Shown: in pieces, positions 3,869-22,491 of the stretch
Layout of the letters: the number at the start of each line of letters is the position of its first letter
Numbering within the stretch: position 1 is the stretch's first letter
IMG/VR virus record: IMGVR_UViG_3300035698_005854
Span: 1-22,491 of that record
Length of the DNA: 22,491 bases
Direction: 5' to 3' (one strand)
DNA from: a virus
The notes under the pieces: model-generated
The model's input: only the letters and a program-made list of their open reading frames with translations
Databases searched by the model: none
Told to the model about the DNA's origin: nothing
Translations under genes and position numbers: made by a program

Positions 3869-4222
3869 TCAATACTGTTTTTTAGTTCCTTTAGACTTAC
3901 CATCCCAAAATGCAACAACCACATCTGCTTGTGCAATAATATCTTTGTTGCGAATCATTCCTGCAGCGCGTCCGTATTTTTTCCAATCAGCTTTAAAGAT
4001 GATCGTGTTTACTCCAATCATCTTAGCGTAATTTTCAGCTAATGTATCAGCTCCCCTGGCACCGCCTGAGACAATGGTGACATCAGTTGGTATATTAATT
4101 AGATCATTAAGGGTGTACGCTAGGAGCTTATAATCTGATTCAGCTTGAGCTCTAGATTTAGGATTGGTTGAGTCTTTGATCGTTCCAAAGTCACGACCTC
4201 CTACGACGGCTATAAATTTCAT
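3869..4222 (-). CDS. SLOG / DUF2493 (YspA-like) nucleotide-binding protein, probably frameshifted
   Basis: A 117-aa frame with hallmarks of the DUF2493 branch of the SLOG superfamily: AVVGGRDF at the N-terminus, TIVSGGARGADTLAENYA near residue 49, and ADWKKYGRAAGMIRNKDII followed by VVAFWDGKSKGTK. SLOG proteins bind nucleotides or nucleotide-derived ligands. Here the frame ends abruptly at KGTKKQY. Shifting by +1 in the six-A run (plus-strand T-run 3878-3883) gives KNSIDLARKSNKELHVLLYK and runs to a TAA at 3793-3795, exactly the kind of C-terminal helix and strand the family has. The full product would be about 142 aa (3793-4222). The start overlaps the upstream stop as ATGA. Confidence 0.8.
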   Translation of the reverse strand: MKFIAVVGGRDFGTIKDSTNPKSRAQAESDYKLLAYTLNDLINIPTDVTIVSGGARGADTLAENYAKMIGVNTIIFKADWKKYGRAAGMIRNKDIIAQADVVVAFWDGKSKGTKKQY

Positions 4223-4524
4223 TGGTCAAGATCCGTTAGGTTAATGTATTGAGTGTCCCAAGTATTCAATGTTGCTAAGTTCTGTTTATACGTCACGTTC
4301 TTCGCTGGAGTAGAAACGATGAAACGTAGGTATTCACGAAGCTCTTTAAGAAATGCAAGAACTTCTTGGTTATAAGATTTAGCACTAAAGAAGTTGATGA
4401 GTGTATCAGCCTGTTCATATTCCGACAGCTTTCTATCGATCGCTACTGTCTGGACATCTTCATCCCACGATGTACGGTCAAATTTAATCTGGAGGATGCA
4501 TACTCTATCTGGAATATTGATCAT
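4219..4524 (-). CDS. Hypothetical protein (101 aa)
   Basis: The start is set at the ATG of MINIPDRVCILQIKF, which has a strong AAGGAG 7 nt upstream and follows the previous stop as TAACATG. A longer frame from 4566 would run back into the upstream gene. The 101-aa product has a beta-rich beginning (CILQIKFDRTSW), an acidic helix-forming middle (SEYEQADTLINFF, EVLAFLKELREYLRF) and a polar tail (NTWDTQYINLTDLDQ). No family recognised. It overlaps the SLOG gene by 4 bp (ATGA), so the two are probably co-translated. Confidence 0.75.
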   Translation of the reverse strand: MINIPDRVCILQIKFDRTSWDEDVQTVAIDRKLSEYEQADTLINFFSAKSYNQEVLAFLKELREYLRFIVSTPAKNVTYKQNLATLNTWDTQYINLTDLDQ

Positions 4525-5011: not shown

Positions 5012-5560
5012 TTAGTTAGAGATTGTGTATCCGCCTGGAACAAGTGAATCAACCAGCTTGTCAGTATAACTATTAGAAACACGAGCCTTAAGCTTATTGG
5101 ATTTGTATGCTTGAGTTTTGCGATAGAAGGCGAGCGCTGTTTTGCGAGAGGCAAACAAATCAGTTGAGAACACATATTCATCGTCAACCCAGATGTGGAT
5201 CGTCTGGGCACCATCCTCGGGCTCTGGGTTACAGTTACCACCATCACTTCCGTCGTGATCCATTTTGTGGCAAGCTTGAGCATATTCGATTCCATCGGTC
5301 TGATTTTCATCTTCATCGAGGTCGAACTGATCAGCGTACAATCCTGGGACGTCATATTCCTGAACTGAGTCAATTGCGAAGTTTTCGATTTCGAGGTTAG
5401 CGGCGAGTTCCAAGAGGATTTCAGGTTCACCATCTACAACCATGATCTGAATTTTTTCGAAGCTTGAAGCACCGATCCATCGGATGGTTTTCTTATCACC
5501 ATGTTTACGGACGATTCGGTTTGCGTCGTGGCTGGTCGCTGTAACTGTAATATGCTTCAT
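5012..5560 (-). CDS. Hypothetical protein, first gene of an operon (182 aa)
   Basis: A 182-aa protein of unknown family. The N-terminus is basic (MKHITVTATSHDANRIVRKH) and the middle is very acidic (DQFDLDEDENQTDG, then DHDGSDGGNCNPEPEDG), with a further strand-rich segment (TIHIWVDDEYVFSTDLFASR) and a basic helix. It has a strong GGAGATAAAC before the ATG and lies directly downstream of a terminator and a sigma-70-like promoter. It is therefore the first gene of the transcription unit that runs left toward the SLOG, deoxyribosyltransferase and GMP-reductase-like genes. The overlapping frame 5002-5433 is a shadow of this gene. Confidence 0.75.
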   Translation of the reverse strand: MKHITVTATSHDANRIVRKHGDKKTIRWIGASSFEKIQIMVVDGEPEILLELAANLEIENFAIDSVQEYDVPGLYADQFDLDEDENQTDGIEYAQACHKMDHDGSDGGNCNPEPEDGAQTIHIWVDDEYVFSTDLFASRKTALAFYRKTQAYKSNKLKARVSNSYTDKLVDSLVPGGYTISN

Positions 5561-5592
5561 GTTTATCTCCGGTGTTTGTTAAGTATGAGAAG

Positions 5593-5621
5593 AGTATACT
5601 CAACTGATATATCATTGTACA
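5593..5621 (-). promoter_or_regulatory. Sigma-70-like promoter for the 5560-leftward operon
   Basis: On the minus strand TGTACA (5616-5621, 4 of 6 matches to TTGACA) and TATACT (5593-5598) are separated by 17 bp, about 30 bp upstream of the ATG at 5560 and just after a terminator. The -10 lies in the palindrome GAGTATACTC. This suggests an early, host-polymerase promoter; no T4 late box is present here. Confidence 0.55.
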
Positions 5622-5631
5622 TAGAAAAATG

Positions 5632-5666
5632 AAAAAAATGCAACCAAATTAATGATTGCATTTTTT
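5632..5666 (-). terminator. Rho-independent terminator, possibly bidirectional
   Basis: The hairpin has stem ATGCAA paired with TTGCAT, extended inward by G-U, C-G and A-U pairs, with loop AAATTAA and A/T tracts on both sides (seven A on the left, six T on the right). In the minus direction it ends the transcript coming from the 6742/5962 genes. All nearby genes run leftward, so that direction is the relevant one. Confidence 0.75.
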
Positions 5667-5739
5667 GTTAAAATTTTAGGATATAGTGATCTATTATTAT
5701 TTACCTTATTATCCTAATTTGAGTTGTTAGATTAGCGGC

Positions 5740-5962
5740 TTAGTAACTTTCCTTCTTAATCTTAGTGATCTTACACATATCTCCCTTGTCAGTATCCTTA
5801 TTCTGAACATTAACTTCGAGTGTGTCTCCTACCTTATATTTCTTTAGGATCAGTGAAGGTAGTCCATTTCTGTTTATTACCTTTCATAGGTCCTTCAAGA
5901 ACTTCAAGGCTTACTTTCCAGTAGTAGCTATTAACTCTATATGATTCGTAGATAGGGTCCAT
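5740..5962 (-). pseudogene. Frameshifted small gene with MDPIYESY leader
   Basis: ATG at 5962, with AAGGAAATACA upstream, opens a frame MDPIYESYRVNSYYWKVSLE that ends after 42 codons at TAA 5834-5836. In the +1 frame the sequence stays open from just after EGPMK and reads VINRNGLPSLILKKYKVGDT, then LEVNVQNKDTDKGDMCKITK, to TAA at 5740-5742. No suitable start codon exists for that second part. The simplest reading is a ~73-aa protein carrying one extra base around AAAGG (plus strand near 5883-5888). The first eight residues match those of the gene at 7044. Function unknown; the C-terminal part looks like a small beta-barrel. Confidence 0.55.
5937..5961. repeat. 25-bp direct repeat encoding the DPI(F/Y)ESY leader, copy 1
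   Basis: Positions 5937-5961 and 7019-7043 match at 23 of 25 bases (CTATATGATTCG, then AGAT and GGGTCCA). Both copies encode residues 2-9 of their proteins. The two genes otherwise differ. The adjacent start codon is ATG in this copy and GTG in the other. Confidence 0.85.
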
Positions 5963-5971
5963 TGTATTTCC

Positions 5972-6742
5972 TTATTGTTTAAATATTGTTACGCCAATCA
6001 CTTCTTTTGGATTATACTGTTTGATTACATCAATCGTGTGCATCTGAGCAGCACGAGTAGTCATGAGGTCATCGATGATGATGATTGTTTTACCTTCGAT
6101 GTTCTTAGCAATATCTTCAACTTGCATTACACCTTTGAAGAATGGACGAAGAGACACATGGACGTTCTTCATAGAGAGGACGCCAGTGGCTTTGGCTTTC
6201 TTCAATACACGTTCAATATCTTTCTTCTGTTTATCTGTTGCTTTATCAGAAGCAGTAATCTTAGAGATATCAGCTTTAGAAATTGCATCAGGGATGATTG
6301 CTACTCCAGGAAGATGATTAGCAACTTCCTTAGTGAACATGTTGTTCAACTGAGAAGAGGACTTTACAGCAAGAACGGCATCAGGTTTGTAGGTTTTAGC
6401 AAGATGCTTACCTATTACTAATCCAGCTTGTCGAAGCCATTTCTTAAATTCGTCTTTATTTACTTCAGTAGCAGATTGACCTTTCAAAGCTTTCATAATA
6501 GGAGTAACGATTTCTTCACGATCCATTCCTTTCATATGAGAGGTACTGAATAGGGAAATAACAGTTGATCCACCAAAGTCTTTTGATTGAGAAGCAAATG
6601 GTTCAAAGGTGATGCCTTTACCTTTACCAAGAGTGATCTTCAGTCCTTCTTTACCTTTATAATTAAAGTCTAGATTATTATCATCTCCAATGAATAAAGC
6701 TTCCATAATTTTAAGAGCATGTTTTTGTAATTTGAGTTCCAT
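5972..6742 (-). CDS. Phosphoribosyltransferase-domain protein
   Basis: A 256-aa protein from the ATG of MELKLQKHALKIMEAL, which overlaps the upstream stop as TAATG. The longer version (start 6757) has its SD only a base from the ATG and is less likely. The C-terminus carries a type-I PRTase PRPP-binding motif, TIIIIDDLMTTRAAQMHTID, near residue 225, with the usual Gly of the DDxxTTG loop replaced by Arg. An upstream DAVLAVKSSSQL strand and the spacing resemble ComFC-like or stand-alone PRTase folds. PRTases join or remove a base with PRPP. The base is unknown and activity is uncertain because of the altered loop. Confidence 0.7.
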   Translation of the reverse strand: MELKLQKHALKIMEALFIGDDNNLDFNYKGKEGLKITLGKGKGITFEPFASQSKDFGGSTVISLFSTSHMKGMDREEIVTPIMKALKGQSATEVNKDEFKKWLRQAGLVIGKHLAKTYKPDAVLAVKSSSQLNNMFTKEVANHLPGVAIIPDAISKADISKITASDKATDKQKKDIERVLKKAKATGVLSMKNVHVSLRPFFKGVMQVEDIAKNIEGKTIIIIDDLMTTRAAQMHTIDVIKQYNPKEVIGVTIFKQ

Positions 6743-7044
6743 TAGATTTCTTGCCATACCTTTTTAGCGATACCTTCGCCATGAATTTCTGTGACATAAT
6801 CCGATATAGCTTCTCTAGCCGCTGTATCAGTTGCGCCAACTTCACTAGCGTCACGAATGATGCTAGAAATTTCTCTTCCGAGTTTAGATGGGTTCGAACC
6901 AAACTTAAAGTTGTCAATCAACTTCTTGATTTGCTTGGTTGCTTCTTTTGCTTGTTTATAGTGTTTACGTGAGTCGTAGAAATCAAAGATGTTCCACTTC
7001 TCGCTTTCAACAACAAGGCTATATGATTCGAAGATCGGGTCCAC
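6742..7044 (-). CDS. Hypothetical protein with MDPIFESY leader (GTG start)
   Basis: A 100-aa protein starting at GTG (AGGAATAAAATT upstream). It begins with (M)DPIFESYSLVVESEKW, then a basic amphipathic helix (KHYKQAKEATKQIKKLIDNF) and two more helices rich in Ala, Glu and Ile. No family recognised. The leader is nearly identical to that of the gene at 5962, at both protein and DNA level. The stop overlaps the PRTase ATG (TAATG). A T4-late-like AATAAATA lies at 7070-7077, about 26 bp upstream of the GTG, so a late, virion-related role is possible. Confidence 0.72.
   Translation of the reverse strand: MDPIFESYSLVVESEKWNIFDFYDSRKHYKQAKEATKQIKKLIDNFKFGSNPSKLGREISSIIRDASEVGATDTAAREAISDYVTEIHGEGIAKKVWQEI
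7019..7043. repeat. 25-bp direct repeat encoding the DPI(F/Y)ESY leader, copy 2
   Basis: Second copy of the repeat at 5937-5961, with two mismatches, one of which changes Tyr to Phe. Confidence 0.85.
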
Positions 7045-7069
7045 AATTTTATTCCTATTATCTTTAAGT

Positions 7070-7077
7070 TATTTATT
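7070..7077 (-). promoter_or_regulatory. Late-promoter-like box (AATAAATA)
   Basis: The minus strand reads AATAAATA, 7 of 8 bases of the T4 late consensus TATAAATA, and is placed about 26 bp before the GTG at 7044. This site is weaker evidence than the three perfect boxes elsewhere in the window. Confidence 0.35.
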
Positions 7078-7078
7078 A

Positions 7079-7528
7079 CTATAACCTGCCAAAGCGATGA
7101 TTGACATAGATGAAATCGGAATAAAGTTCTAGGCCCCAAGAGGGTGATGCATAGGAAGGATTGTAGAAGTGATTAGATGTACAGAACGGCTTGAATTTGC
7201 CTTTTATAATGTCATTTGATAATAACAGACAGAACTTCCAATTTGCTCTATCAATATCATTCTTTATTACAGGAATGCCTGGTCTCTGAACGTCCCAGGA
7301 AGCAAATTGTTTATTCTGTGTACATACATCCCAGGCCTTCATATTACGTTCCTGGGAGCGGTTGTAAATTACTGAAGCTACATAACACATACCGAGGTTG
7401 GTCTCACCTCTGGCCTCAGTGTATATCGTATACGCGATAGTTTGCTGATTAATAGTCGCGACTGAATTTACCAGAGACGCAAATACCAGTATCATGCTTA
7501 AAAACAAGAGTTTTGATTTCTGCTTCAA
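7079..7528 (-). CDS. SleB-type cell-wall hydrolase with signal peptide
   Basis: A 149-aa protein starting at TTG, which has an ideal AAGGAG 7 nt upstream. Residues 1-24 (MKQKSKLLFLSMILVFASLV) form a signal peptide or signal-anchor. The rest fits the SleB/CwlJ cell-wall hydrolase family (Hydrolase_2): AYTIYTEARGETNLGMCYVA with the conserved catalytic Glu38, VIYNRSQ, W-D-V-C, a central FASW, and SNHFYNPSYASPSWG. These enzymes cleave peptidoglycan glycan strands. In a phage this suggests a secreted or signal-arrest-release type lysin. No holin is visible next to it. The start lies inside a 55-aa ORF in another frame. Confidence 0.85.
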   Translation of the reverse strand: MKQKSKLLFLSMILVFASLVNSVATINQQTIAYTIYTEARGETNLGMCYVASVIYNRSQERNMKAWDVCTQNKQFASWDVQRPGIPVIKNDIDRANWKFCLLLSNDIIKGKFKPFCTSNHFYNPSYASPSWGLELYSDFIYVNHRFGRL

Positions 7529-7616
7529 CGGCTATCTCCTTAAACTTATTAATTACAGATTGAGGCATCTTCGGTCCTTTACGACCAAGAATATTAGTGT
7601 AGTCGATAAATCCCAT
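7449..7616 (-). CDS. Small protein overlapping the lysin start (55 aa)
   Basis: ATG at 7616, 5 bp after the stop of the 161-aa gene, opens a 55-aa frame: MGFIDYTNILGRKGPKMPQS, then VINKFKEIAVEAEIK and a short tail ending SRDY. It fills the otherwise empty interval 7529-7620 and overlaps the lysin start by 80 bp in a different frame. Composition is protein-like (basic linker then amphipathic helix). The SD is weak, so translation would rely on coupling. Function unknown. Confidence 0.55.
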   Translation of the reverse strand: MGFIDYTNILGRKGPKMPQSVINKFKEIAVEAEIKTLVFKHDTGICVSGKFSRDY

Positions 7617-7620
7617 TGCA

Positions 7621-8106
7621 TTAATCATTGATCACTCTCAGATACATATTGTAGCGATCAATATTAGCATTCCAATCAACCTTAATATTATGATCGAGGC
7701 AGTGAACAGTCAACGTGTTCCAATACGTTTGTGACAGGCGATGATTAGATGAAATCTCATAACGACCCACTTCAGTAAACGCAATCGTACAGTCTTGAAG
7801 ACGTTGATCCTCTTGCACTTCACCAATAAAGATATAAACTACGCTCTGAGAATGAGCATCAACTGGGAAGCTAAGTATAATGTCTTCAACGCAGTGCAGC
7901 TTAAGCGATTCAACAACCGTATAAAGGAATGAACGTGATGAAGGGCAAAGATTTACGTTTACAGGCAACCCTAATCCAGCCACTTTAGTGATAGTAGAAT
8001 CATCAAGATTTCGACAATGGATTTCAGGGGTATCTCCACTATCAATATCAAGTAAGATTTTATCCCAAGTAGCTTTAGTGGTTGAATTTGTGATCATGTA
8101 TTTCAT
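7621..8106 (-). CDS. Hypothetical protein (161 aa)
   Basis: A 161-aa soluble protein with no recognised domain. It begins MKYMITNSTTKATWDKILLD and contains several hydrophobic strands (EDIILSFPVDAH, SVVYIFIGEVQ, DCTIAFTEVGRYEIS) that suggest an alpha/beta fold, with three or four Cys and His (HCRNL, LHCVED, VHCLDHN). No CxxC pair is seen. The ATG shares a base with the stop of the CCA-adding enzyme gene (TAATG), so it is translationally coupled to it. Confidence 0.72.
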   Translation of the reverse strand: MKYMITNSTTKATWDKILLDIDSGDTPEIHCRNLDDSTITKVAGLGLPVNVNLCPSSRSFLYTVVESLKLHCVEDIILSFPVDAHSQSVVYIFIGEVQEDQRLQDCTIAFTEVGRYEISSNHRLSQTYWNTLTVHCLDHNIKVDWNANIDRYNMYLRVIND

Positions 8107-9542
8107 TATACGTTTTCCTTTATGAATTTCATTACATCTTCTTTAGTAACTTTGAACTCGTGTTCAATAATAAACTCTTTTGCTTTAGCCATAGTTTTAC
8201 CTATTGCAGCACCTTTCAGATCAGGGAAAGCTTCCATTACATCTTTACCATCAATCAGTTTCTTTATTCTGGCATCGAAGATTTCCTTTTCACCGAACGT
8301 TTCATAGATCCTTTCGATTGCATCCATTACCTCTTTCTGGTGAACTGGATCGAAAGCTTCACCTCTGCATGAATCATCAGCATAAGTAACTTGTTTCATA
8401 GTTTCCCAGTATGGAGATTGACGGATCGGAATGATCTTAGTCGCTTTCTTAGGGATAACGTGGAACCTCATGTGATGCTGAATACAGAAGCTTATTTCTT
8501 CAGACATCTTAGATGAAAACTTCAGGCGTTCAGCAATATCTTTAAAGATCTTTACGCCAGCACGATCATGTCCAATGAACTTATAACCCAGGTGGGTAGG
8601 ATGTCTTTCGGCACATTCAGGCTTACCAATATCATGGAACAGAATGCTCAGTGTAACCATAGGATCATTACCTTCATAAGTTCTCAGGGCAGCCATGATG
8701 TGATCAAAAACCAGACCGTTATCAACAACATAACGACCTGAAGGAGTATCACCATGCTTCTTCTTAGAATATGGCATATATTTCTCAGTCTTATTATCGA
8801 AGACCATAGCACCTTCAGGGTGATGTTTGTAGTATTGATCATACAGAGTTGTTGGAATGATTTCAGGCAGGACATAACGAATTACATCAGTCTTGATCAT
8901 ATCTTCAATGAACTGTGCCATTGCTTTGCCACCGTATCCAGCAACCTTAATCATTTCAGCAGAAATTCGCTCAGCAGCAATATTTTTCAGCTTATATGCT
9001 TTAGAAATCATAGCATTCTTAGTAGCTACGTCAATTTTAAAGCCAAATCGAGCTGCAAATCGATGTGCTCGGATAATTCTCAGCGCATCTTCTTCAAAAC
9101 GATCAGTAGGATTGCCAACACATCGGATAATCTTATTCTGAATGTCTTGTTGTCCATTATGGAAGTCATGAATAATACCATCAGCATCCATGTACATGGC
9201 ATTAATAGTAAAGTCTCTGCGCTGAGCATCGTCAGTTATAGTAGCACCCAGTTTAACTGAATCTGGATGACGTGAATCAGTGTATTCACCATCAGATCGG
9301 AACTGAGCTACCTCATATTCTTCACCTTGAAATGATACACCTGTTATACCAAAGTCCATTGATTGCCCAATGTCATATGTATTCAGGTCTGAGGATCTAA
9401 TGATCAGAATATCTTGTTTAGTAGCTATATCGATATCATGTGGATCGATATTCATTACAGCGTCTCGAACACAACCACCGACCAGATAGGTATCGAGTCC
9501 AATGTGTGGGATCAGCCGCATAGCTTTTTCAATTGATGTCAT
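8106..9542 (-). CDS. cca: CCA-adding tRNA nucleotidyltransferase
   Basis: A 478-aa class II tRNA nucleotidyltransferase/poly(A) polymerase-type enzyme. Motifs in order: YLVGGCVRD at 19-27, the metal-binding HDIDIAT (Asp36, Asp38), RRDFTINAMYMD near 108, and NPTDRFEEDALRIIRAHRFA near 143 (the helix that reads ATP and CTP). The C-terminal half has an HD-type domain (DHIMAALRTY, LSILFHDIGKP, IQHHMRFH), as in E. coli-like enzymes. The reaction is addition of C, C and A to the 3' end of tRNA. It is rare among phages. The ATG has AAGGAT 7 nt upstream and follows a terminator. The tRNA-like element at 21-115 lacks encoded CCA, which would give the enzyme a substrate. Confidence 0.93.
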   Translation of the reverse strand: MTSIEKAMRLIPHIGLDTYLVGGCVRDAVMNIDPHDIDIATKQDILIIRSSDLNTYDIGQSMDFGITGVSFQGEEYEVAQFRSDGEYTDSRHPDSVKLGATITDDAQRRDFTINAMYMDADGIIHDFHNGQQDIQNKIIRCVGNPTDRFEEDALRIIRAHRFAARFGFKIDVATKNAMISKAYKLKNIAAERISAEMIKVAGYGGKAMAQFIEDMIKTDVIRYVLPEIIPTTLYDQYYKHHPEGAMVFDNKTEKYMPYSKKKHGDTPSGRYVVDNGLVFDHIMAALRTYEGNDPMVTLSILFHDIGKPECAERHPTHLGYKFIGHDRAGVKIFKDIAERLKFSSKMSEEISFCIQHHMRFHVIPKKATKIIPIRQSPYWETMKQVTYADDSCRGEAFDPVHQKEVMDAIERIYETFGEKEIFDARIKKLIDGKDVMEAFPDLKGAAIGKTMAKAKEFIIEHEFKVTKEDVMKFIKENV

Positions 9543-11546: not shown

Positions 11547-12926
11547 TTAGCTAGTGAAGTAACGAGCACCGTCAGCTGCGAGAGCTGCAGAGCTCAAGTT
11601 ATCTACACGCACGTACTGGTAGTACTTGCTTGATCCATACATGTTGTCATGCATACCGTAACGAGTACGAACAGCAAGACGAGGGTTGAAGGTGTTTTCA
11701 CCAGTAGCACGAGCAAGCTGTACAGGGATGTACGGACAATACACGATACCAGTCTGGGTTACACGCTGACCTTTATAACCGATAAGGGCGTAGTTACCAC
11801 CTGCGAAGATGTCACGGTATACCTTGATCGATCCAGAACGAAGTGTTCCAACGAATGTAGTTTCTGCAGCACCATCGGTACTAGCAGTATTTCCACCACC
11901 CTGTGCATCTTGGGACGTGAAGTCACTGAGACGTTCAAGCAATGCAGTTACATCTGGAGAAGCAACGGCCCAGTTACCAGCACCATCATGTGTACGAACA
12001 GCGATAGACTGACGACGCTGAAGGACGTGCGTGTAAAGGGTCGAAATACGTTCAAGCTGATGACGACCATCTGCTACAGTAGGATCCCATACTGATTTAG
12101 CTTCCGCATCACCAATACAAAGTTTTACCATACGTTCAAGAAGTTCACGGTCAAGTTCGTTCTTGATTTCCTGGCCAAGTACTGCAACCATTTCGGCATC
12201 AATATCGATACCCTGTGTGTGCATCATGTCTTCAGCAGCTTCAAGTGAGTAGGATGTACCAAACTTACGAGATTTAGCGATGATAGCAGCTTTTTCAATA
12301 CCAAGCTTAGCTGTAGGCATATCAGAGCCAAGGCCCCACCATTCTGCTTCTTCCATTTCAGCGGCTTCACCAACACCTGGACGATTAGATCCAGCGAAAG
12401 CTTGCCAGTCAGCGTCATCAGAGATAGTACCAGTGGCACCAGTGAAGGCTGAGTCAATTTTGTTGTAACCAAGTTCATCACCAGGCTGTGCAGTGAAACC
12501 TTTACCTTGCTGATCGTACTTGTAACGCATAGCGAATGCAAGTCCAACAGGTCCGTTCATTGGCTGAACACCAACGAGGTTATGGGCAAGAAGACCAGGG
12601 AATGTACGACGAAGAAGAGGCATCACGATGTGAGGCATACGATAGTCGTTAGGTCCACCAGTAGGATTAAAGCTCTGGCCGATTGCTCCACCACCTTGGG
12701 CAGATGCATCACCAGCACCCCATGCTCCACCTGTCTGACCATAGGCTTCGTTCATGTTCTGCTGAGGAGTTAAGAACTGATGTGTGTTTTGGATAGCGAT
12801 AGCCATCGATTCACGTAGATTTTGGTCTACGATAGGTGCAGCACCTTCGTGATCGATAACATCTTTCCAACGTTCAACCAAAGTACGACGGTACATAGGG
12901 TTAAGATGTGCGAATGTCATTTCCAT
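11547..12926 (-). CDS. 23: Major capsid protein (T4 gp23-like)
   Basis: A 459-aa major head protein of the T4 superfamily, last in the portal-protease-scaffold-capsid order. Recognisable segments are MPLLRRTFPGLLAHNLVGVQ-PM near residues 100-123 (T4 has the equivalent RRAIPNLIAFDICGVQPM), KAAIIAKSRKFGTSYSLEAA near 210, QEIKNELDRELLERM, and a C-terminal GIVYCPYIPVQLARAT and NPRLAVRTRYGM. A prohead-protease cut is likely in the N-terminal part; E60/A61 (NMNE|AYG) lies at the position matching the T4 LTE|A site. The ATG has AAGGAAGG upstream. The leader from a perfect late box is about 165 nt and starts with a hairpin. Confidence 0.95.
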   Translation of the reverse strand: MEMTFAHLNPMYRRTLVERWKDVIDHEGAAPIVDQNLRESMAIAIQNTHQFLTPQQNMNEAYGQTGGAWGAGDASAQGGGAIGQSFNPTGGPNDYRMPHIVMPLLRRTFPGLLAHNLVGVQPMNGPVGLAFAMRYKYDQQGKGFTAQPGDELGYNKIDSAFTGATGTISDDADWQAFAGSNRPGVGEAAEMEEAEWWGLGSDMPTAKLGIEKAAIIAKSRKFGTSYSLEAAEDMMHTQGIDIDAEMVAVLGQEIKNELDRELLERMVKLCIGDAEAKSVWDPTVADGRHQLERISTLYTHVLQRRQSIAVRTHDGAGNWAVASPDVTALLERLSDFTSQDAQGGGNTASTDGAAETTFVGTLRSGSIKVYRDIFAGGNYALIGYKGQRVTQTGIVYCPYIPVQLARATGENTFNPRLAVRTRYGMHDNMYGSSKYYQYVRVDNLSSAALAADGARYFTS

Positions 12927-13124: not shown

Positions 13125-14045
13125 TTAGTGAATGTAGTTAGCATACTGAGATGCAACGTTAGCATACGCTTCATTTACTGGAGTTTCATGTTCTTCTTCA
13201 AAATCTTTGTCAAGATTAGTGTCAAGATCAAGGGCTTCGATTCCTTCTTTAGCAAGACGACGATTTTCTTCATCGAGTGCTTTAAAGTCTTCTTGAGCTG
13301 ATTCCCAACCTTCTTTAACGTCAGTGATCTTTCCGTTTTCAAAGCGTTCTACCATGTAGTCTTTAAGAGCAGGCTTCATAGTTTCAGTTTCTGATTCGAT
13401 AAACGAGTCAACTTCGATTTTGTTAAGTTTCTTAGTAAGAACGATGTTCTGTGAAAGAACTTTATCGAATTCACCTTTCATTGAACCAACTGATTCATTT
13501 ACTTTGGATTCAAGCACGGTATCAGTGAAGAAGATATCCTTCATAGATTCGAAAGCTTTTTCAAGCTTTTCAAGACGAGCAAGACCAGTAATATCTTCAT
13601 CAGTATTAGCTTCGTCAAGTTTGTTATCGATAATGGCTTCAACAGATTCACAAAGATCATCCATTTCTTTATCCATATAAGTATCGAATGCTTCTTTTAC
13701 CTTAGTAAGTTCAGCAACTGAACGATCATCAAACTGACTGATAGCAAATTCAAGCATTTCAGAGAACTGAACGTCGATAGCGTCAACGGCTGTAGCATGA
13801 GCTTCAGTCAAATCAGTAAGTTCTTTAGCATGAACAAGTTTAGATTCTGCAATCTGTGTAGTAATGGTTTCCATCTGAGTTGCAACAACTTCATCGATAG
13901 TACCAGTTTCAGCTTCAACTGCTTTAGTTACGGCTTCTACGAAACGAGTCGAAATATCTTCTCGTACGCTTTCGGCAATAACTTCTTTAGAAGGATCCAA
14001 AGTGTTAAGTAAACCTTCTAGTAAGTCTTTAAGTGTTTTTTCCAT
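13125..14045 (-). CDS. 22: Prohead core scaffolding protein (T4 gp22-like)
   Basis: A 306-aa, highly acidic, almost entirely helical protein with Glu/Asp/Lys-rich heptad-like runs, typical of the gp22 inner scaffold. The T4 gp22 scaffold is degraded by the gp21 protease during maturation. Sites of the LxE/IxE type suited to that protease occur throughout (LLEG at 9-12, LCES near 131, IxE pairs in the middle). The gene lies between the protease and capsid genes, as in T4. The ATG is preceded by AAGGAG with a spacer of about 9 nt. Length is close to the T4 protein (269 aa), slightly longer. Assignment rests on position plus composition. Confidence 0.85.
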   Translation of the reverse strand: MEKTLKDLLEGLLNTLDPSKEVIAESVREDISTRFVEAVTKAVEAETGTIDEVVATQMETITTQIAESKLVHAKELTDLTEAHATAVDAIDVQFSEMLEFAISQFDDRSVAELTKVKEAFDTYMDKEMDDLCESVEAIIDNKLDEANTDEDITGLARLEKLEKAFESMKDIFFTDTVLESKVNESVGSMKGEFDKVLSQNIVLTKKLNKIEVDSFIESETETMKPALKDYMVERFENGKITDVKEGWESAQEDFKALDEENRRLAKEGIEALDLDTNLDKDFEEEHETPVNEAYANVASQYANYIH

Positions 14046-14228: not shown

Positions 14229-14924
14229 TTACATTTTAGCCAATTCGGCATAAAAACTGTTAAAGCTGTTAACGATATGGTCGGCTTTGAATTGAGCTTT
14301 ACGAGGAAGAGTAAGCATATTCTTTTCGAATTTCTCAAATGATTGTTCAAGGATATCACCATGAGTATCAATCATAAAGCTTTTAGATTCAAGAATACCA
14401 TCTACATAGCAACCTGGACCTGATGGATTATGTACAACATCTTCAGCAATTAGCTTATAGATGTTATCGATAACTTTATCTTTACCAATGGATCCAACAC
14501 CACGAGAGCTAACACCAGGTTTGCCACCATATTGAAGAATTGAGGCAAGGTTATCACCTAAGATTGTTCCTTTAATACCATGATCAGGAAAACTTGCTAG
14601 AACAGTAGCTTCACCGATCCAGATGTTACCTTCCTTAGTAAGGGAGTCAACCATAATACATGCTCGTTCGAAGTTAACATCGATTGAGTCAGGGTGGTTA
14701 GTTTCACCAAGTGAAAGACCTTTATTAATCTTTTCACGAGTGTATTCTTCAACCGCTCTGTCTAGAACACCTTCAGTATAAAGACGACCATTACCGTTTC
14801 GCTTGTTAGCTACTAAGAATGGGCCTTTAATCTTAAGCCGTTTAGGCGTGCCATTGTTGGATTGTTCGATAACTAACTCGCAATCCCACATTGGACTATC
14901 AGACATTAATTTACATGAGTTCAT
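14229..14924 (-). CDS. 21: Prohead core protease (T4 gp21-like)
   Basis: A 231-aa serine protease of the herpesvirus-assemblin-like (S80) fold. Visible: NKRNGNGRLYTEGVLDRAV near residues 40-58 (substrate-side strand and helix), LGETNHP with the catalytic His77, and PGVSSRGVGS with the catalytic Ser139/Ser140. These correspond to His85 and Ser140 of T4 gp21. It processes the scaffold and capsid N-terminus inside the prohead. A perfect late box lies 16 bp upstream of the ATG, so the leader is only about 10 nt; the SD (AAGAAG) is weak. A second start at Met7 is possible. Confidence 0.92.
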   Translation of the reverse strand: MNSCKLMSDSPMWDCELVIEQSNNGTPKRLKIKGPFLVANKRNGNGRLYTEGVLDRAVEEYTREKINKGLSLGETNHPDSIDVNFERACIMVDSLTKEGNIWIGEATVLASFPDHGIKGTILGDNLASILQYGGKPGVSSRGVGSIGKDKVIDNIYKLIAEDVVHNPSGPGCYVDGILESKSFMIDTHGDILEQSFEKFEKNMLTLPRKAQFKADHIVNSFNSFYAELAKM

Positions 14925-14983: not shown

Positions 14984-16663
14984 TTAAAAATCGCTTTCTT
15001 CCTTAGGTTTAGTTTCTGTACCAAATTCTTCTAGGTTAGCGGCTTTGAAATTAATCTTAGCCATTCTAGTTTTAGTTTCTTCTATTGACTTGAAGTTTTC
15101 TTCAACCTCTTTGTCAGACATGCCAAGATATTTCTTCATTGCAATAACAGGATCTAAGTAATCAGTACTAGTAGCACGTTCAAACATTTCCATTTTGTTC
15201 TGAAGCATTACTCTCTGTTGATATATGTCGTAAGCAATAGGGCGAACGAATTCAACATCAAAGGAGTTTTCTGGAATCTGATCCGAGATCTTATCCCATA
15301 CTTCAAGGAACTTAAGGTGTGTAATGAATGATTCTTTAATACCCATTGAGATACGATTAGTTAATCGCATGATCATCTGTGCAAATGAGAATTCTTCGTA
15401 AGTGATTTCTTCTGTATTCTTAGTCCAGTTGCTATCACCAGATTCAAACATACGTTTAGAAGGGATCTTCAATGCTTTGAATACTTTACCTTGGAAATAA
15501 CGAAGACCTTCAAGGTCACCAAAGTTAGCATCACCGCCTATTTGAGAAACATCAGATTCAGGGGCACCTTGAGGACGAGCAAACCAGAACGATTCGATCA
15601 TAAGGTGTGTATCTCTTGCTGAGTGAACAGAACCAGATTCTTTATCATAAGACATCTTGTTGCTGTATTTCTTCATGTATTTGTTCAATACATCACGTTG
15701 TTTGTTAGGGTTAATATTACCCATACCAACGTTAAACATTAAACGAACAGGTGAACGAGAAATTGTGTAAATGATAATCGAGTCTTCCATCGATACTAAC
15801 TGATTGTAAGCACGACGAGCTTTAGAAAGCAATGGAAGTACAATAGTTTCATTACAGTTCATTGAGTCAAAGTTACAGTAGCATAATTGAGTGAACGGCA
15901 TGAATATACATTCACCATTAAGAAGATCATCACCACGATCAAGTTTATCAATCTGTAAATTATACTTCTTTTGGAAGTCCTGTTTGAACCCTGTTGTACC
16001 TGAACCACCTTGTTGATTATAATTATTGATATCTAAGTCGTTAGGACGTACAGAGAGTACCTTAACAACAATACCTACCTTAGTATTGGTAGATGTATCA
16101 ATTGCATAGTCAAATGCATGAGCAGGGATCTTCGTGTATCCTACGATTCCTTGATCAAGCATTTTAGGGTTTACAATATTTTCAAAACAAAGTTCACCAG
16201 TGATAACGAAGTCTTTCATATATTTGTAGATGTTCTTCTCTAGATTAAGAGGAGAAACCACTTTATTGAATTCTTCTTCAAACTGGGTTTTGTATTTAGC
16301 TGGGAAAGTATCAGCGAAAGTCATGTTGATGATCTTACCGTCATCGTCATAGTTTAACGAAGACTCACAAATCTGATCAATCGCATCAGAAATTTCCTGA
16401 TAACGAGACATTCCATAGTAATACTGAAGGCGCTGTGGCTTATTTGTATCAAGAGCCTTAACCTTCTTTTCAGCAGCAAAGGAGTTTACGATGTTAGGAT
16501 CGTAAAAATCTGAGTTCTGGTGTCGAGCATTTAAATCATTAAAGGCGTTTTCGATTACTGAAAGATCTGTGATATCATCATCAGCCGAAAACCTCATAAA
16601 ACTTTTTAAGAGGTGATCAAATTTTTCATCGTCATCGCGATTCTTTTTTCCGAATATTGGCAT
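14984..16663 (-). CDS. 20: Portal vertex protein (T4 gp20-like)
   Basis: A 559-aa portal protein. Long T4-like stretches are visible: QYYYGMSRYQEISDAIDQIC near residue 80, NIYKYMKDFVITGELCFENI near 144, MSYDKESGSVHSARDTHLMI and FWFARPQGAPESDVSQIGGD near 340-375, and LKIPSKRMFESGD followed by TYEEFSFAQMIMRLTNRIS near 400. The dodecameric portal starts head assembly and later passes DNA. The length is near T4 gp20 (524 aa). AAGGTTAACC precedes the ATG. It is the first gene of the head block and is divergent from the giant tail/adhesin gene, only 40 bp apart. Confidence 0.95.
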   Translation of the reverse strand: MPIFGKKNRDDDEKFDHLLKSFMRFSADDDITDLSVIENAFNDLNARHQNSDFYDPNIVNSFAAEKKVKALDTNKPQRLQYYYGMSRYQEISDAIDQICESSLNYDDDGKIINMTFADTFPAKYKTQFEEEFNKVVSPLNLEKNIYKYMKDFVITGELCFENIVNPKMLDQGIVGYTKIPAHAFDYAIDTSTNTKVGIVVKVLSVRPNDLDINNYNQQGGSGTTGFKQDFQKKYNLQIDKLDRGDDLLNGECIFMPFTQLCYCNFDSMNCNETIVLPLLSKARRAYNQLVSMEDSIIIYTISRSPVRLMFNVGMGNINPNKQRDVLNKYMKKYSNKMSYDKESGSVHSARDTHLMIESFWFARPQGAPESDVSQIGGDANFGDLEGLRYFQGKVFKALKIPSKRMFESGDSNWTKNTEEITYEEFSFAQMIMRLTNRISMGIKESFITHLKFLEVWDKISDQIPENSFDVEFVRPIAYDIYQQRVMLQNKMEMFERATSTDYLDPVIAMKKYLGMSDKEVEENFKSIEETKTRMAKINFKAANLEEFGTETKPKEESDF

Positions 16664-16703: not shown

Positions 16704-19700
16704 ATGAAAGTAATAAATATCTATATGAAAAACGTGCAATCATATAATAAAGAACTCGAGATAGCGACTGCACAATTTAAAGATGCCTTAAATAACATAA
16801 AAATCTATATCTTTAATAAGGATGATTCAATAAAGAAACAGATTAGCGTACCTTTACGTTACGCGGCTAAATCAGTAGCCCTTAAAGAACTAGAGGATCG
16901 TAAAAAGAACCCAGCATACCCTGTTATGGCTTTTAGTCGTAGTGGATTCAGCGTTGACCAAGAACGTTTCTTCAATCTAAACAACGATGTCTTAATTCAA
17001 CAGAGTGATTCTTTAGATTACACTTTAGGACAACCTATTCCTGTTGATATTCAATTTGAACTTAGTGTTTTTTCTATGAATCCTGTTGAGGATGAACAGA
17101 TTGTACAGAACTTTACTCCATTTTCCATGCCAAATTTTTATGTTGCATGGAAACATCCTTACACTAAAGGTACCTTAAAGAGTCAAGTAATTTGGGACGG
17201 TCAGATTGATACACAGTATGAAATGATTGACTATGATGGTGAATCAAAACAGCGTATTATATCTAACACTACCTTTGTTTTCAAGACTTGGTTATTCCCA
17301 GGATCAAATCTTATCCCAGGCCAAGGACGTACTATAACTGATTGCAATGTAATCAGAAAAGTGATCACTAATTGGTATAGTGTTGATGATGTTTATTCAA
17401 TATTGGAAGAAGGTAATAATCTGCCTTATGATGAAATAATCTATTCAACTTTACCAACTCCATATATTACAAGTCCACCATCTATGGTCCCAGAACAGGT
17501 TAGCAATGTATCTGTTTTTGGTGCTAATTTTGTTGATACTATGCTTGTTTACTTGACTGCTACTGATGGAGTTCTAGGACCTGAAGAACCAATTATTCTT
17601 AAAGGTGAAGATACCGGTCTTACAGGTATTCTATATGATTATACATTAATTTCTGACGAAGAATTCATTTTAGAAGGCTTTACAGCTGATGACAACACTG
17701 AAGTTGATATTATAGTTGTTGATGTATGTCAAACATTTGAAAAGCTATCAAATTACTTAGGAAATAAGCTAAGAATTCGTGAAAGAGTTATCATGCCTGA
17801 TGGTAACCACTTTATTGCTAGATACAATATGTCTGGTGATTTTACTCTGCCATTTGTAGATGGATATACTTATGATGGTGTAATTGACTGGGGTGATGGT
17901 TCTCTTGGACTTATGTCCGATGGAATATTTACTCATGATTACGAACCCGGTGTATACACAGTTACATTGTCAGCTGGGGTTCCTAAATTTAGTTTTGACT
18001 TAGTTCCTAGAGATGCACATAAATTATTATCTGTTGAATCCCTTGGTGAAGTTGATATGCTTGATTTCGAAGGGATATTTGCTAACTGTATTAATATGAC
18101 TTCGTGTAATATTGGTGTATGGGCTCCTACAGTCCCTTCTATGAAGAGAATGTTCTATCGTTGTAACTCATTGACAACCTTTGATTATCCTAATTGGGAC
18201 TTCGATAACGTTGACACAATGGAAAATTTCTTATACAACGTTGACATTGGAGTGACATTCTATTCTGAATTTATTCAATGGATGAACATTAATTTGAACA
18301 ACTCTAATGTTATATTCAGTGGAGGAAACTCTGAATATGATATGTTTACTGCAGTTCCAAGACAGGAACTCGTAGAGAGCGGCTGGGTTATCACAGATGG
18401 CGGTTACTATGGTAACGAATATGTTACTCAGTATGAAGTTGCTTCATCTGATTTAACTATAAGACTCCCTTTATCTGAAGGATTTAATTACTCATTCGTT
18501 ATTGATTGGGGAGATGGATCAGATAAATCAATAATTGAATCTGCAACTGAAATAGATATATTTCATACATATTCTACTCCAGACTTATATGAATTGAGTA
18601 TTGAAGGTGTTTGTGAGAACTGGAGAGATGTATGGTCTAATATTTCTGCATCATTCGTTTTACTTTATCACATCTATGAATCACAACACTTAGCATTACC
18701 TCTATCTGATATTGGCACATATGACTTTATTGTTGATTGGGGAGATGGTTCACCTACTGATCACATCACTGAATGGGATGATCCTAAGAACTTGCATACA
18801 TACGAGTACTTTGGTAACTATTACGTAAAGATAACAGGAATTTGTACAACATGGTTAAGCAAAGCGGTGTTAATAAAAGATGACTTCGAATTATTGTTCC
18901 ATGTTTGTACATCAGACACTCAGTTATGCTTGCCATTGTCTGAAGAAGGTGAATATGACTTCGATATTGACTGGGGCGATGGATCGCCTATAGTGCATAT
19001 CACTGAATGGAATGATCCTGCTACTGTACATACATTTCAGTATTGTGGTAATTATTACACTAAAATAAAGGGAACATGCTCTCTATGGTTGAATAAGGCT
19101 ATCAGCATAGTGCCAGACAGCTTTGAGATGAATTACTTAATAGATCCAATTGATATGGTTGTAGATTTACCTCTGGTTGAATCTTATAATTACGACTTTG
19201 TTGCTAATTGGGGAGACGGTACTACCTCTAACGTTATAGCATGGGATGATCCTAATAGAGAACATATATATTCTCGTAAAGGCAAATACACCGTTAGCAT
19301 AACCGGAATTTGCGAAAGATTCAAATCATTAAGCACAATTACGTTTAATCCATACGTTGGTAACAACGGTTTAGCAGAATTGATAATCTCAAATGAGATT
19401 GATCCATACAACTTTACTGTTGATTGGGGAGACGGATCTCCTATTGATACAATACTAGCATGGGATGATCCAAATAGAATCCATCAATACTTGGCAATTG
19501 GTTCGTTTAACGTAACTCTGTATGGCGAGATTCCGGGCACAGTTTCGTTTGACGTAACTGAATCGTATGTCTTCAATGTAACAGCTATTGATGATGACGA
19601 AGCTAAATTTAATATGGTTGTTGGAGGAACATATGACTTTGATGTTAGCTGGGGAGACGGTTCACCTGATTCGACTATTATAGCCTACGACGATATAAAT

Positions 19701-21074
19701 CGCTATCACACCTACGTATCAGCAGGCAATTACGTTATCACTGCTCAAGGTACAATTAAAGCTGATTTGACTATTGATATAAGAGGCGAAATTATAATTC
19801 CAGACGTTATGGGTATGATCTCATTTGGCGATGTTCATATTAAGACAGGATTGATTCCATCCTCTGGATTTGAATATGAAATGGACGCAAGAAATATTTC
19901 AAAATGGTATAGCGATGTACCAGAACTTGGTGCTGGTCATGGCATCATGGGTGTAGAAGTAAATACCGCCGGGATCCAACGAACAGTCGAATTATATAGA
20001 TCAAGGCACTCAGATCAAGTCTTCCATAGTGTATGGGGAACTCCTAGATGGAATGGAACAACTGTTCCTTTAGATTTCACTCGCAGAGTTTGGGCTAAAG
20101 ACGGTCTTGATATTTCTATTGGTGAACTCACTACACAAACCATGACAGATGATATCTATAACGAGTCTGAGGATATCTATCTATGGGCAAGGAATGAAGT
20201 GACAGCTAGTCAACCAAGATATTTTGCAAAGGCTATAATCTACACACTTCAATGCTGGTCTGACGGAGCTAGAACTAATTTGATATATGATCTTGTTCCA
20301 GTCATCAAGGGTTCAACTCAATATTCTGCTACGCCTGCTCCTGCTGCTGGATTTTGGGATGTTGCTAATGACTTATATGTAATGCCAGATGGTGGAACAT
20401 TGCACCCTATTAAAGAAGATCTTAGAACTGAATATCCAGCATCTGTTTTTGGATTAGCGTCGTCATCTGAACTTTATATGGATACCGGTATAAACGTCCT
20501 ATCTGAATTCGATTTTGAACTGGATGCTAGATACGCTCAATCAGGTGAACCGCCAGACAACGGTTATTCTATTATGGGCAATGCTATATTCTCAAACCCT
20601 ACTTTAGTAGATGATCCTGATAATGATTATGCTGAATTGATTAGAGTAAAAACCGGGAGATTTAGCAGTGTATATGGCCAGCCCGCTGCGAGTCATGACG
20701 TTGGTGCGTCTGATTCAGTTAGACATATATTCAATAAAAGTGGAACAACATATTCAATATCAGGGATCGGAAGTATTACTTTATTGGATACTCCTAAGCG
20801 AGTTGGAAAATGTTATTTATGGCAACGAAATGAGGACAATAACAACGTAGCTAGATATTATGCCGATTGGACTATCTTCTCGTTTAGGGTATGGTGCAAC
20901 GCTACTAGAACCGAATTGCTCCAAGAGTTAATGCCGATACCTATTGGATCAACATTCTATTCATCTACTCCTGCCCCAAGCAATTGCTTCTGGGATACGG
21001 TATCTGCACGATACATTGAACCTATTGGTGGAACACTTGGCATCGAAGGTACAATTCCGCCAGATATGATATAA
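16704..21074 (+). CDS. Giant structural protein: gp15-like domain fused to PKD/BspA/LamG-like adhesin
   Basis: 1456 aa, the largest gene here, divergent from gp20. Residues ~20-205 resemble T4 gp15, the tail sheath terminator: ISVPLRYAAKSVALKEL near 45, an R-x-x-N turn, PIPVDIQFELSVF near 113, QIVQNFTPF near 130, a FVFKTWLFPG end near 190. An IPT/TIG-like domain (PYITSPPSMVPEQVSN) follows at about 250-345. Seven WGDG signatures (residues 396, 602, 679, 757, 836, 908, 983) mark PKD-like domains; the last six repeat every 72-79 aa. Between the first and second is a BspA-like leucine-rich segment (IFANCINMTS, FYRCNSLTTF). Two tandem ~200-aa LamG-like modules (from about 1037 and 1248), each ending in a STPAP-type motif and a FWD, close the protein. 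No signal peptide. The start could be Met1 or Met8. Expected in the virion, neck or tail. Confidence 0.75.
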   Translation: MKVINIYMKNVQSYNKELEIATAQFKDALNNIKIYIFNKDDSIKKQISVPLRYAAKSVALKELEDRKKNPAYPVMAFSRSGFSVDQERFFNLNNDVLIQQSDSLDYTLGQPIPVDIQFELSVFSMNPVEDEQIVQNFTPFSMPNFYVAWKHPYTKGTLKSQVIWDGQIDTQYEMIDYDGESKQRIISNTTFVFKTWLFPGSNLIPGQGRTITDCNVIRKVITNWYSVDDVYSILEEGNNLPYDEIIYSTLPTPYITSPPSMVPEQVSNVSVFGANFVDTMLVYLTATDGVLGPEEPIILKGEDTGLTGILYDYTLISDEEFILEGFTADDNTEVDIIVVDVCQTFEKLSNYLGNKLRIRERVIMPDGNHFIARYNMSGDFTLPFVDGYTYDGVIDWGDGSLGLMSDGIFTHDYEPGVYTVTLSAGVPKFSFDLVPRDAHKLLSVESLGEVDMLDFEGIFANCINMTSCNIGVWAPTVPSMKRMFYRCNSLTTFDYPNWDFDNVDTMENFLYNVDIGVTFYSEFIQWMNINLNNSNVIFSGGNSEYDMFTAVPRQELVESGWVITDGGYYGNEYVTQYEVASSDLTIRLPLSEGFNYSFVIDWGDGSDKSIIESATEIDIFHTYSTPDLYELSIEGVCENWRDVWSNISASFVLLYHIYESQHLALPLSDIGTYDFIVDWGDGSPTDHITEWDDPKNLHTYEYFGNYYVKITGICTTWLSKAVLIKDDFELLFHVCTSDTQLCLPLSEEGEYDFDIDWGDGSPIVHITEWNDPATVHTFQYCGNYYTKIKGTCSLWLNKAISIVPDSFEMNYLIDPIDMVVDLPLVESYNYDFVANWGDGTTSNVIAWDDPNREHIYSRKGKYTVSITGICERFKSLSTITFNPYVGNNGLAELIISNEIDPYNFTVDWGDGSPIDTILAWDDPNRIHQYLAIGSFNVTLYGEIPGTVSFDVTESYVFNVTAIDDDEAKFNMVVGGTYDFDVSWGDGSPDSTIIAYDDINRYHTYVSAGNYVITAQGTIKADLTIDIRGEIIIPDVMGMISFGDVHIKTGLIPSSGFEYEMDARNISKWYSDVPELGAGHGIMGVEVNTAGIQRTVELYRSRHSDQVFHSVWGTPRWNGTTVPLDFTRRVWAKDGLDISIGELTTQTMTDDIYNESEDIYLWARNEVTASQPRYFAKAIIYTLQCWSDGARTNLIYDLVPVIKGSTQYSATPAPAAGFWDVANDLYVMPDGGTLHPIKEDLRTEYPASVFGLASSSELYMDTGINVLSEFDFELDARYAQSGEPPDNGYSIMGNAIFSNPTLVDDPDNDYAELIRVKTGRFSSVYGQPAASHDVGASDSVRHIFNKSGTTYSISGIGSITLLDTPKRVGKCYLWQRNEDNNNVARYYADWTIFSFRVWCNATRTELLQELMPIPIGSTFYSSTPAPSNCFWDTVSARYIEPIGGTLGIEGTIPPDMI
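18447..19797 (+). repeat. Six tandem PKD-like units
   Basis: Within the giant gene six units of roughly 72-79 codons recur. Consensus features: LPL, YDF, (V/I)DWGDGSP, WDDP, HTY, GxYxVxIxGIC and a following W. Units 2-5 keep a Cys in the GIC/GVC/GTC position; units 6 and 7 have lost it. The DNA is diverged but a GATTGGGGAGATGG-like core is shared. Extent approximate. Confidence 0.8.
19811..21062 (+). repeat. Tandem duplication of a LamG-like module
   Basis: Two homologous protein segments of about 200 aa. Shared landmarks: F(D/E)(F/Y)E(L/M)DAR, (G/Y)xxIMG, YLWxRNE, a W-x-x-(A/G)-x-R-T stretch, (I/K)GST(Q/F)YS(A/S)TPAP and GGTL. Similar segments occur in the next gene. Boundaries approximate. 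Confidence 0.7.
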
Positions 21075-21107: not shown

Positions 21108-22491
21108 ATGGCTAATGCTCCCTATAAAATCGTAAACCTTGGCGACGTTGGATGGACAAATCTTAATGACGCCTTCAAGAACAATACACAATTAGAATCT
21201 GCCACTATCGGCGCTGGAATCAACGCGTTGACTGAAATGATTAACACATTTGCTGGATGTTCAAACCTGAAAGAAATTAATGTTATCGACTGGGATATAT
21301 TGAATATAACGTCATTGCATAACTTCTTGAAGGACACTCAGTTAACAACTGATTCATATTCGTCAATGCTTATTCACTTTGCTAACTCAACCACAATTAA
21401 CGTTGGTGTTGTTATGCATGGTGGCAACAGCTTTTTTAATGCAGCAGGAGAAGAAGCTAGAGATACTTTAGTAAACGTTTATCAATGGGACATTACTGAT
21501 GCCGGCTTGCAGCCAGAATGGATTCAGATCTTAACAACAGACGATAATGGTAATCTCACAGATTTAACACTTCTAAGCCCAGTTCCAACTCCTGCTAATG
21601 CTAGAATGCTTAAGTTTTTAACTGGCGGAGATTATGTTGAAATAGAAGACAATATGATAAATTTCTTTAATACTGGTTTCATTGATTTTGAATTTGATAT
21701 GAAAAGGGGTAGCGCGTCCACACAATATATTCTAGATAATGGATATAAGTCTGGATATAATGGAATAGCAATTTATTGCATAAACAACGACATTACCATT
21801 TATAGGAGAGTGTCTAACGTAGTTGACACAAAACAGATGTTAAACTGCCTAAGCCCGAGCTCGTCTTATACAACACTTCAACATATTCATATCATAGGAG
21901 ACTCTGACGGGTTTGTTGTAACAAGAGACGGAACACCATTTACTTACTCTGGCGGGTTTTCTGTTAAAACCGGTACACCTGCTCATAACGCTAGACTCGG
22001 TCGCCAAATCGGTATGTCAGACAATATCTCAGATTATATTCAATTAGGAAACGTGAAAATTGCGGATGTTGCATATTTGAATTTTGAAGAGAGACAGGGA
22101 TTAGAGTGTTTCAACACTTTGAACAATACTAAAGCTAATATTGTGGCAGTGTCTGATTTATCTAACATCAGAATAAAATATGACGGAATTGAATCGCATA
22201 ACTGGAAATATGGTTTTAATATGCCGGACGAGTATACCACTTATCCAAGTTTCTCAGTTAAAACAACAGGTATTGCCACCATTGGTACGCATGACACATA
22301 TTTCATAGATGCGACGTATGATCCAGTTAATGGGGCCCCTTCATACGAATTTGATGTTAATATACAGTCAGATCAAGACTTTGACGATACTGTGATATTT
22401 TCAGCAGGCAGACCGTATCAAGAGGATTCAAATCATTATTCTATCCATTATAAAAAATCAACAGGCTCGATCATATGCAGAGTTAATACTG
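21108..22491 (+). CDS. Second adhesin-like protein, incomplete at the window edge
   Basis: An open frame from ATG 21108 that runs without a stop to the end of the window (461 codons). Residues ~1-140 match the BspA-like segment of the giant protein (FAGCSNLKEI, WDILNITSLHNFL, GGNSFFN, W-D-I-T-D-A-G). From about 165 a LamG-like segment begins (LKFLTGGDYVEIEDNMINFF, then FIDFEFDMKRGS), and a second one starts near 390 (TIGTHDTYFIDATYDP, YEFDVNIQSDQDF). It has its own perfect late promoter and an SD-like GGAT. No gp15-like domain is seen. Probable virion adhesin or receptor-binding component; the C-terminus is outside the window. Confidence 0.75.
   Translation, partial: MANAPYKIVNLGDVGWTNLNDAFKNNTQLESATIGAGINALTEMINTFAGCSNLKEINVIDWDILNITSLHNFLKDTQLTTDSYSSMLIHFANSTTINVGVVMHGGNSFFNAAGEEARDTLVNVYQWDITDAGLQPEWIQILTTDDNGNLTDLTLLSPVPTPANARMLKFLTGGDYVEIEDNMINFFNTGFIDFEFDMKRGSASTQYILDNGYKSGYNGIAIYCINNDITIYRRVSNVVDTKQMLNCLSPSSSYTTLQHIHIIGDSDGFVVTRDGTPFTYSGGFSVKTGTPAHNARLGRQIGMSDNISDYIQLGNVKIADVAYLNFEERQGLECFNTLNNTKANIVAVSDLSNIRIKYDGIESHNWKYGFNMPDEYTTYPSFSVKTTGIATIGTHDTYFIDATYDPVNGAPSYEFDVNIQSDQDFDDTVIFSAGRPYQEDSNHYSIHYKKSTGSIICRVNT

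Follow-up and report, generated by a model that had tools for sequence, protein, structure and literature searches.

Genes at the locus

The window, i.e., the whole stretch of DNA analysed here, is a complete viral record of 22,491 bases. It holds two minus-strand genes, denoted A and B, that begin with nearly the same short leader, together with T4-type head genes, as listed below (↓, putative cleavage point).

5740–5880 (upstream limit approximate), minus strand: open continuation of gene A in another frame (...GLPSLILKKYKVGDTLEVNVQ...KKESY)
5834–5962, minus strand: gene A as read, 42 aa, with a VLE↓G site at residue 23, after which the frame ends
5939–5962, minus strand: leader MDPIYESY of gene A, ATG start, putative site IYE6↓S
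5972–6757, minus strand: phosphoribosyltransferase-like gene between genes A and B, without leader
6742–7044, minus strand: gene B, 100 aa, with leader, second site VVE13↓S and a predicted four-helix domain
7021–7044, minus strand: leader MDPIFESY of gene B, GTG start, putative prohead-protease site IFE6↓S
11547–12926, minus strand: gp23 major capsid protein, maturation site MNE60↓AYG
13125–14045, minus strand: gp22-type scaffold, nine [ILVM]xE[AS] sites including PVNE↓AY
14229–14924, minus strand: gp21-type prohead protease, TATAAATA 23 bp upstream, VIE20 near the N-terminus
14984–16663, minus strand: gp20 portal
22365–22491: exact 127-bp terminal overlap with IMGVR_UViG_3300035698_013362 (G001)

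Genes A and B start at 5962 (ATG) and 7044 (GTG), respectively, and an AGGA-type ribosome site precedes each of them. A preliminary description had claimed a 23/25 match at these starts, and this was confirmed on reading 5400–8200: TGGACCCTATCTACGAATCATATAG (5961–5937) and TGGACCCGATCTTCGAATCATATAG (7043–7019), the first 25 bases after each start base on the minus strand, are identical at 23 positions. Reading both genes also bore out that the leaders differ by a single residue (Y/F at residue 5) and that the proteins are dissimilar past it. The degenerate leader pattern occurs only twice in the window (n = 2), where 0.02 matches were expected by chance, and two matches were obtained in none of 100 shuffles. 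The similarity underlying the earlier two-gene picture is thus real; that picture has to be revised in that the frame of gene A is interrupted and the leader is carried by far more genes. From its start, gene A is open for 42 codons to 5834, and a different frame is then open to 5740, which suggests a frameshift either in the gene or in the assembly.

A structural model of gene B, computed from a single sequence with the chain starting at residue 2, is of moderate quality and assigned pLDDT below 50 to the first 14 residues, followed by four helices from about residue 27. Neither a family match nor a structural or fold match to gene B was found, and a search of viral contigs gave no close relatives of gene B, the phosphoribosyltransferase gene or gp23. 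The last 44 residues encoded by the phosphoribosyltransferase-like gene match the PADLOC ShosT model (E = 1e-5). Elsewhere in the window, 16704–21074 encodes a protein of 1456 aa with recurring, PKD-like WGDGS segments; its residues 13–235 share 64% identity with another gene, L017 1106–1831.

Leader genes in the joined genome

The right end of the window overlaps one end of G001 (82,918 bp) by exactly 127 bp, a hallmark of adjacent contigs from an assembly graph with k = 127, and the last open reading frame of the window continues into G001. They also share a 29-bp promoter-like sequence, GTTGAGTATACTCTTCTCATACTTAACAA, which is probably the early promoter of this phage and lies upstream of different genes in three copies (window 5576–5605; L015 ~4200–4290 and 19725–19810). 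When further contigs of the phage were sought with this sequence among the viral contigs, only the already-known G001 was found outside the window. Because of the overlap, the continuing frame and the shared 29 bp, the window and G001 were joined into a single genome of at least 105 kb.

When 2.9 million viral contigs were scanned for the exact leader, the one further match lay in G001, and a looser scan gave additional leaders there. In the joined genome, nine proteins start with M..I(F/Y)E(S/A)Y, two encoded in the window and seven in G001 (MDAIFESY, MDPIFESY, MDTIYESY, MNPIYEAY, MDPIYESY, MDLIYESY and MDTIFESY), whereas chance would place I(F/Y)E(S/A)Y at residues 4–8 in ~3e-4 proteins. Two variants of the form MKPxIAE(A/S)Y, MKPTIAEAY and MKPNIAESY, bring the leader genes of G001 to nine. 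The search of the remaining genome that the preliminary description had proposed therefore yielded seven more leaders and two variants. A clear ribosome site precedes most leader genes, and an assembly artefact was rejected as the source of the similarity because the leaders lie on many different genes, each with its own ribosome site. No such start was found when the pattern M..I(F/Y)E(S/A)Y was run on seven other T4-superfamily phages. Leader matches at L012, L018 and L019 were discarded as chance matches in other phages or at non-start positions.

An unbiased scan was also performed for proteins that are similar at residues 2–9 and differ afterwards, with internal positions as a control. 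It gave 17 strong pairs in the joined genome and none at the internal control positions. On T4, with protein identities taken from the T4 record, the same scan gave MKT(Y/F)xEF on ipII, ipIII, ipI and gp61.1, and MELITELF on alt and alt.-1, so that the method recovers known head-internal proteins of T4 with no prior information. One further T4 cluster, MNYxxIYN, was obtained, which resembles a homing-endonuclease family.

Head genes and candidate cleavage sites

The gp22-type scaffold had no family hit and was assigned by its position between the protease and capsid genes and by its density of cleavage sites. Its nine [ILVM]xE[AS] sites compare with 1.6 in shuffled sequences, a count reached in none of 5000 shuffles, and with a proteome mean of 0.31 per 100 aa outside the scaffold. 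The maturation site of gp23, MNE60↓A, aligns with LTE65↓A of T4 gp23. The scaffold and this gp23 site define [ILVM]xE↓[AS] as the putative local cleavage motif, and all 11 leaders carry it at residue 6 or 7. The earlier proposal that IFE and IYE fit a gp21-type cut rule is accordingly in agreement with the phage's own motif. In T4, the protein densest in essentially the same motif is a 269-aa gp22-like reading frame adjoining gp21, which contains SIFE↓SV. Separately, a 376-aa protein without leader (L015 13818–14948, minus strand) contains six [ILVM]xE[AS] sites, including VNEAF and VSEAY, a count among the highest in the genome; it may be a further protease substrate.

The first site, IFE or IYE at residue 6, stands at the same position as the cut in T4 Alt, which is at ITE-6 (PMC5694885). 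A second [ILVM]xE[AS] was found at residues 11–25 in 6 of the 11 leader proteins versus 7 of 123 others (p = 1e-5), and site density in leader proteins is 3.0 per 100 aa in residues 9–30 and 0.41 beyond. Since the leaders were not picked for this second site, it constitutes an independent test. Propeptides of the T4 IP type end around residues 13–22. As a second site falls at residues 13–22 in most leaders, the cut may be located there and not at residue 6. The second site thus suggests either an IP-type cut or redundant cuts, as have been described for phiKZ propeptides (PMC9026906).

Carrier proteins

The leader is carried by at least nine and probably 11 varied proteins, nearly all of which are orphans in family, profile and homologue searches. 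Past residue 10, only the G001 pair L016 3525 and 3830 showed similarity, which is weak (E = 0.007), and the best other pair reached E = 0.27. The preliminary description had named a leader belonging to a larger conserved domain as one case against its proposal, and the cargos are mostly dissimilar past residue 10. Intact carriers are 97 to 320 aa long. The pI values of the cargos span 4.6–9.6; after the leader, 8 of 11 have a pI of at least 8.2, and the others have 4.6, 5.4 and 6.7. Two cargos, L015 12958 (−) and L016 10854 (+), contain hydrophobic, membrane-like stretches, and several leader genes adjoin sheath, tube, neck, baseplate-hub and terminase genes.

The cargo of L016 623–1207 (+) resembles 2H phosphoesterases below the curated cut-off: it weakly matches Pfam 2_5_RNA_ligase2 at E = 3e-5 (24.6 bits; cut-off 27) and Acb1 (E = 0.0024), and it matches a PHROG RNA ligase at 1e-5, while a PDB sequence search with it gave nothing meaningful. 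No cargo homologue was found in cultured phages by tblastn, no leader cargo was matched by PADLOC, and no ADP-ribosyltransferase was found among the carriers. A model of the 320-aa cargo was set aside at pLDDT 53. Frames are interrupted in two leader genes, gene A and L015 15268–15585 (−), the latter (MDPIFESYQQCLVESANVTKK) having an in-frame TAA after 21 codons, with a further 83 open codons in the same frame. Such broken frames fit dispensable accessory genes, or assembly errors.

Leader DNA and upstream signals

Codons of the residues shared between leaders agree in 136 cases versus 98 expected from genome codon usage (p = 0.0016), and Asp is encoded by GAC in 7 of 8 leader codons versus 23% genome-wide. 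This excess indicates that the leaders are related by DNA descent and were moved between genes as a short cassette. The late-promoter signal TATAAATA was found in exact form upstream of 2 of 11 leader genes versus 5 of 115 others, and with at most one mismatch upstream of 6 of 11 versus 27 of 115, a weak enrichment overall; one copy lies 13 bp before the start of the 2H-like cargo gene. Late expression of leader genes from this signal is only suggestive.

Interpretation and alternatives

We consider it very likely that MDPI(F/Y)ESY and the 5–15 residues following it form a capsid-targeting propeptide of a T4-superfamily phage, whose carriers would be packaged and injected. The capsid-targeting proposal of the preliminary description predicted further leader copies, gp20, gp21, gp22 and gp23 genes and a shared protease motif, and sequence counterparts of all of these were found. 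The leader protein would be made late, and a hydrophobic face of I4, F/Y5 and Y8 may dock the carrier onto the gp22 scaffold core. A gp21-type protease would then remove the leader at [ILVM]xE↓[AS], i.e., at residue 6, at the second site at 13–22, or at both, so that mature carriers would be retained inside the head and delivered to the next host together with the DNA. By analogy with T4 IPI–III, they could plausibly counter host defences or commandeer host functions; the basis for this analogy is the anti-defence function of Ip1–3 (PMC12373910). In this reading the leader has spread between genes by copying of a short DNA cassette. The sequence itself shows that the leader recurs on unrelated proteins in a phage with T4-type head genes, that it fits the phage's own protease motif and that the leaders are akin as DNA; targeting and packaging, cleavage, injection and cargo function, including anti-defence, are here inferred.

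The leader could otherwise direct docking or sorting to a structure other than the head core, such as the tail, baseplate or membrane, and match the protease motif incidentally. Such a role would agree with the sheath, tube, neck, baseplate-hub and terminase genes that neighbour leader genes and with the membrane-like stretches of two cargos. We regard it as unlikely, given that all 11 leaders have E↓[SA] at residue 6 or 7, that a second site is independently enriched and confined to residues 9–30, and that the same kind of signal in T4 marks exactly the head-internal proteins. Common ancestry of the carriers themselves, as diverged paralogues or as owners of a true shared N-terminal domain of which only the start is still similar, draws on the codon agreement, which exceeds usage and points to descent at the DNA level, on the weak similarity of the L016 3525 and 3830 cargos, and on the T4 MNYxxIYN cluster, an apparent shared N-terminal domain that the scan also caught. 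The other cargos, however, are dissimilar past residue 10, intact carriers vary in length between 97 and 320 aa, one cargo has a 2H phosphoesterase-like fold, and in the gene B model the leader forms the disordered start, which together make this origin highly improbable.

The conserved DNA might also act mainly as a translation-start or regulatory element with the peptide as its by-product, as high base identity and shared codons would allow. We give this hardly any credence: apart from a generic ribosome site, the upstream sequences are not alike, I4, the aromatic F/Y5 and E6 are kept despite codon changes (ATC/ATT, TTC/TAC/TAT, TCA/AGT/GCA), and the MKPxIAE(A/S)Y variants keep the logic of the peptide with different DNA. 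The best reading of the leader is a lineage-specific capsid-targeting propeptide on mostly orphan, probably injected proteins. Being recognisable from sequence, it would allow proteins that are likely to be injected and to act early to be shortlisted among unannotated orphans.

A wider proposal, which we advance only tentatively, is that T4-superfamily phages sort proteins into the capsid by leader codes that are lineage-specific and co-evolve with the scaffold, and that this phage has evolved its own two-site MDPI(F/Y)ESY code to preload about ten injected proteins. If so, one member of the preloaded set would be a 2H phosphoesterase, which could target host signalling nucleotides as soon as infection begins.

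Comparison with known leader systems

The leader resembles the capsid-targeting sequence (CTS) of T4 IPI, IPII and IPIII (MKTYQEFIAE↓A) in being a short N-terminal stretch on otherwise unrelated proteins that ends in [ILVM]xE↓[AS], in a phage with gp21, gp22 and gp23, and in that its carriers appear to be small accessory proteins. It differs in its sequence (MDPIFESY...) and in its two candidate cut sites. Carriers number 9–11 in 105 kb here and four in the T4 cluster, and unlike the T4 IPs, the cargos reach 320 aa and are not all basic (pI 4.6–9.6). No leader gene matches the T4 CTS pattern MKT(Y/F)xEF(I)xE, whose single match in the joined genome is an unrelated start. The leader is therefore treated as a probable functional analogue or variant of the T4 CTS and not as its homologue, and a CTS-like role despite the dissimilar sequence appears well supported at the sequence level. 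The T4 Alt propeptide (MELITE↓L, 6 residues) has I4, E6 and the same length to the first site, and broken leader-bearing copies occur in both phages (alt.-1 and alt.-2 in the T4 record; gene A and L015 15585 here). Alt differs in P1', which is L in T4 and S or A here, and in its ADP-ribosyltransferase carrier, a type not found here.

The nearest terminase found belongs to Rhizobium phage RHph_I1_18 (34.6%), which itself has a leader family: MISFKQHLNE↓S, MITFKQHITE↓S, MITFKQHISE↓S, MIPFKQHISE↓S, MQSFKEHLTE↓S and MKSFSEHIAE↓S, together with a T4-like MAKTYKEFIAE↓A. The pattern used to list them has a background of 2–5 matches per genome, and single members are therefore less certain than the family. 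The consulted stretches of its record hold no annotation of such a family, and Pfam gave no match to the leader proteins. One of them, L085 8633–9112 (−), has MISFKQHLNE↓S followed by YHGTSLDNAVKIIESGKL, also with no Pfam match; this segment presumably resembles ADP-ribosyltransferase starts. As in the present phage, one leader common to several proteins ends in xE↓[SA], whereas the RHph_I1_18 leader resembles that of T4 (K/S-F-K-x-H/F) and has a single cut site. Since the N-terminus scan recovers the T4 set and also finds sets in this uncultivated phage and in a Rhizobium phage, it could be run on many T4-like genomes to list candidate injected proteins. The cleavage end xE↓[SA] is common to T4, RHph_I1_18 and this phage while the targeting part differs, which is the pattern that a scaffold-specific sorting code would give.
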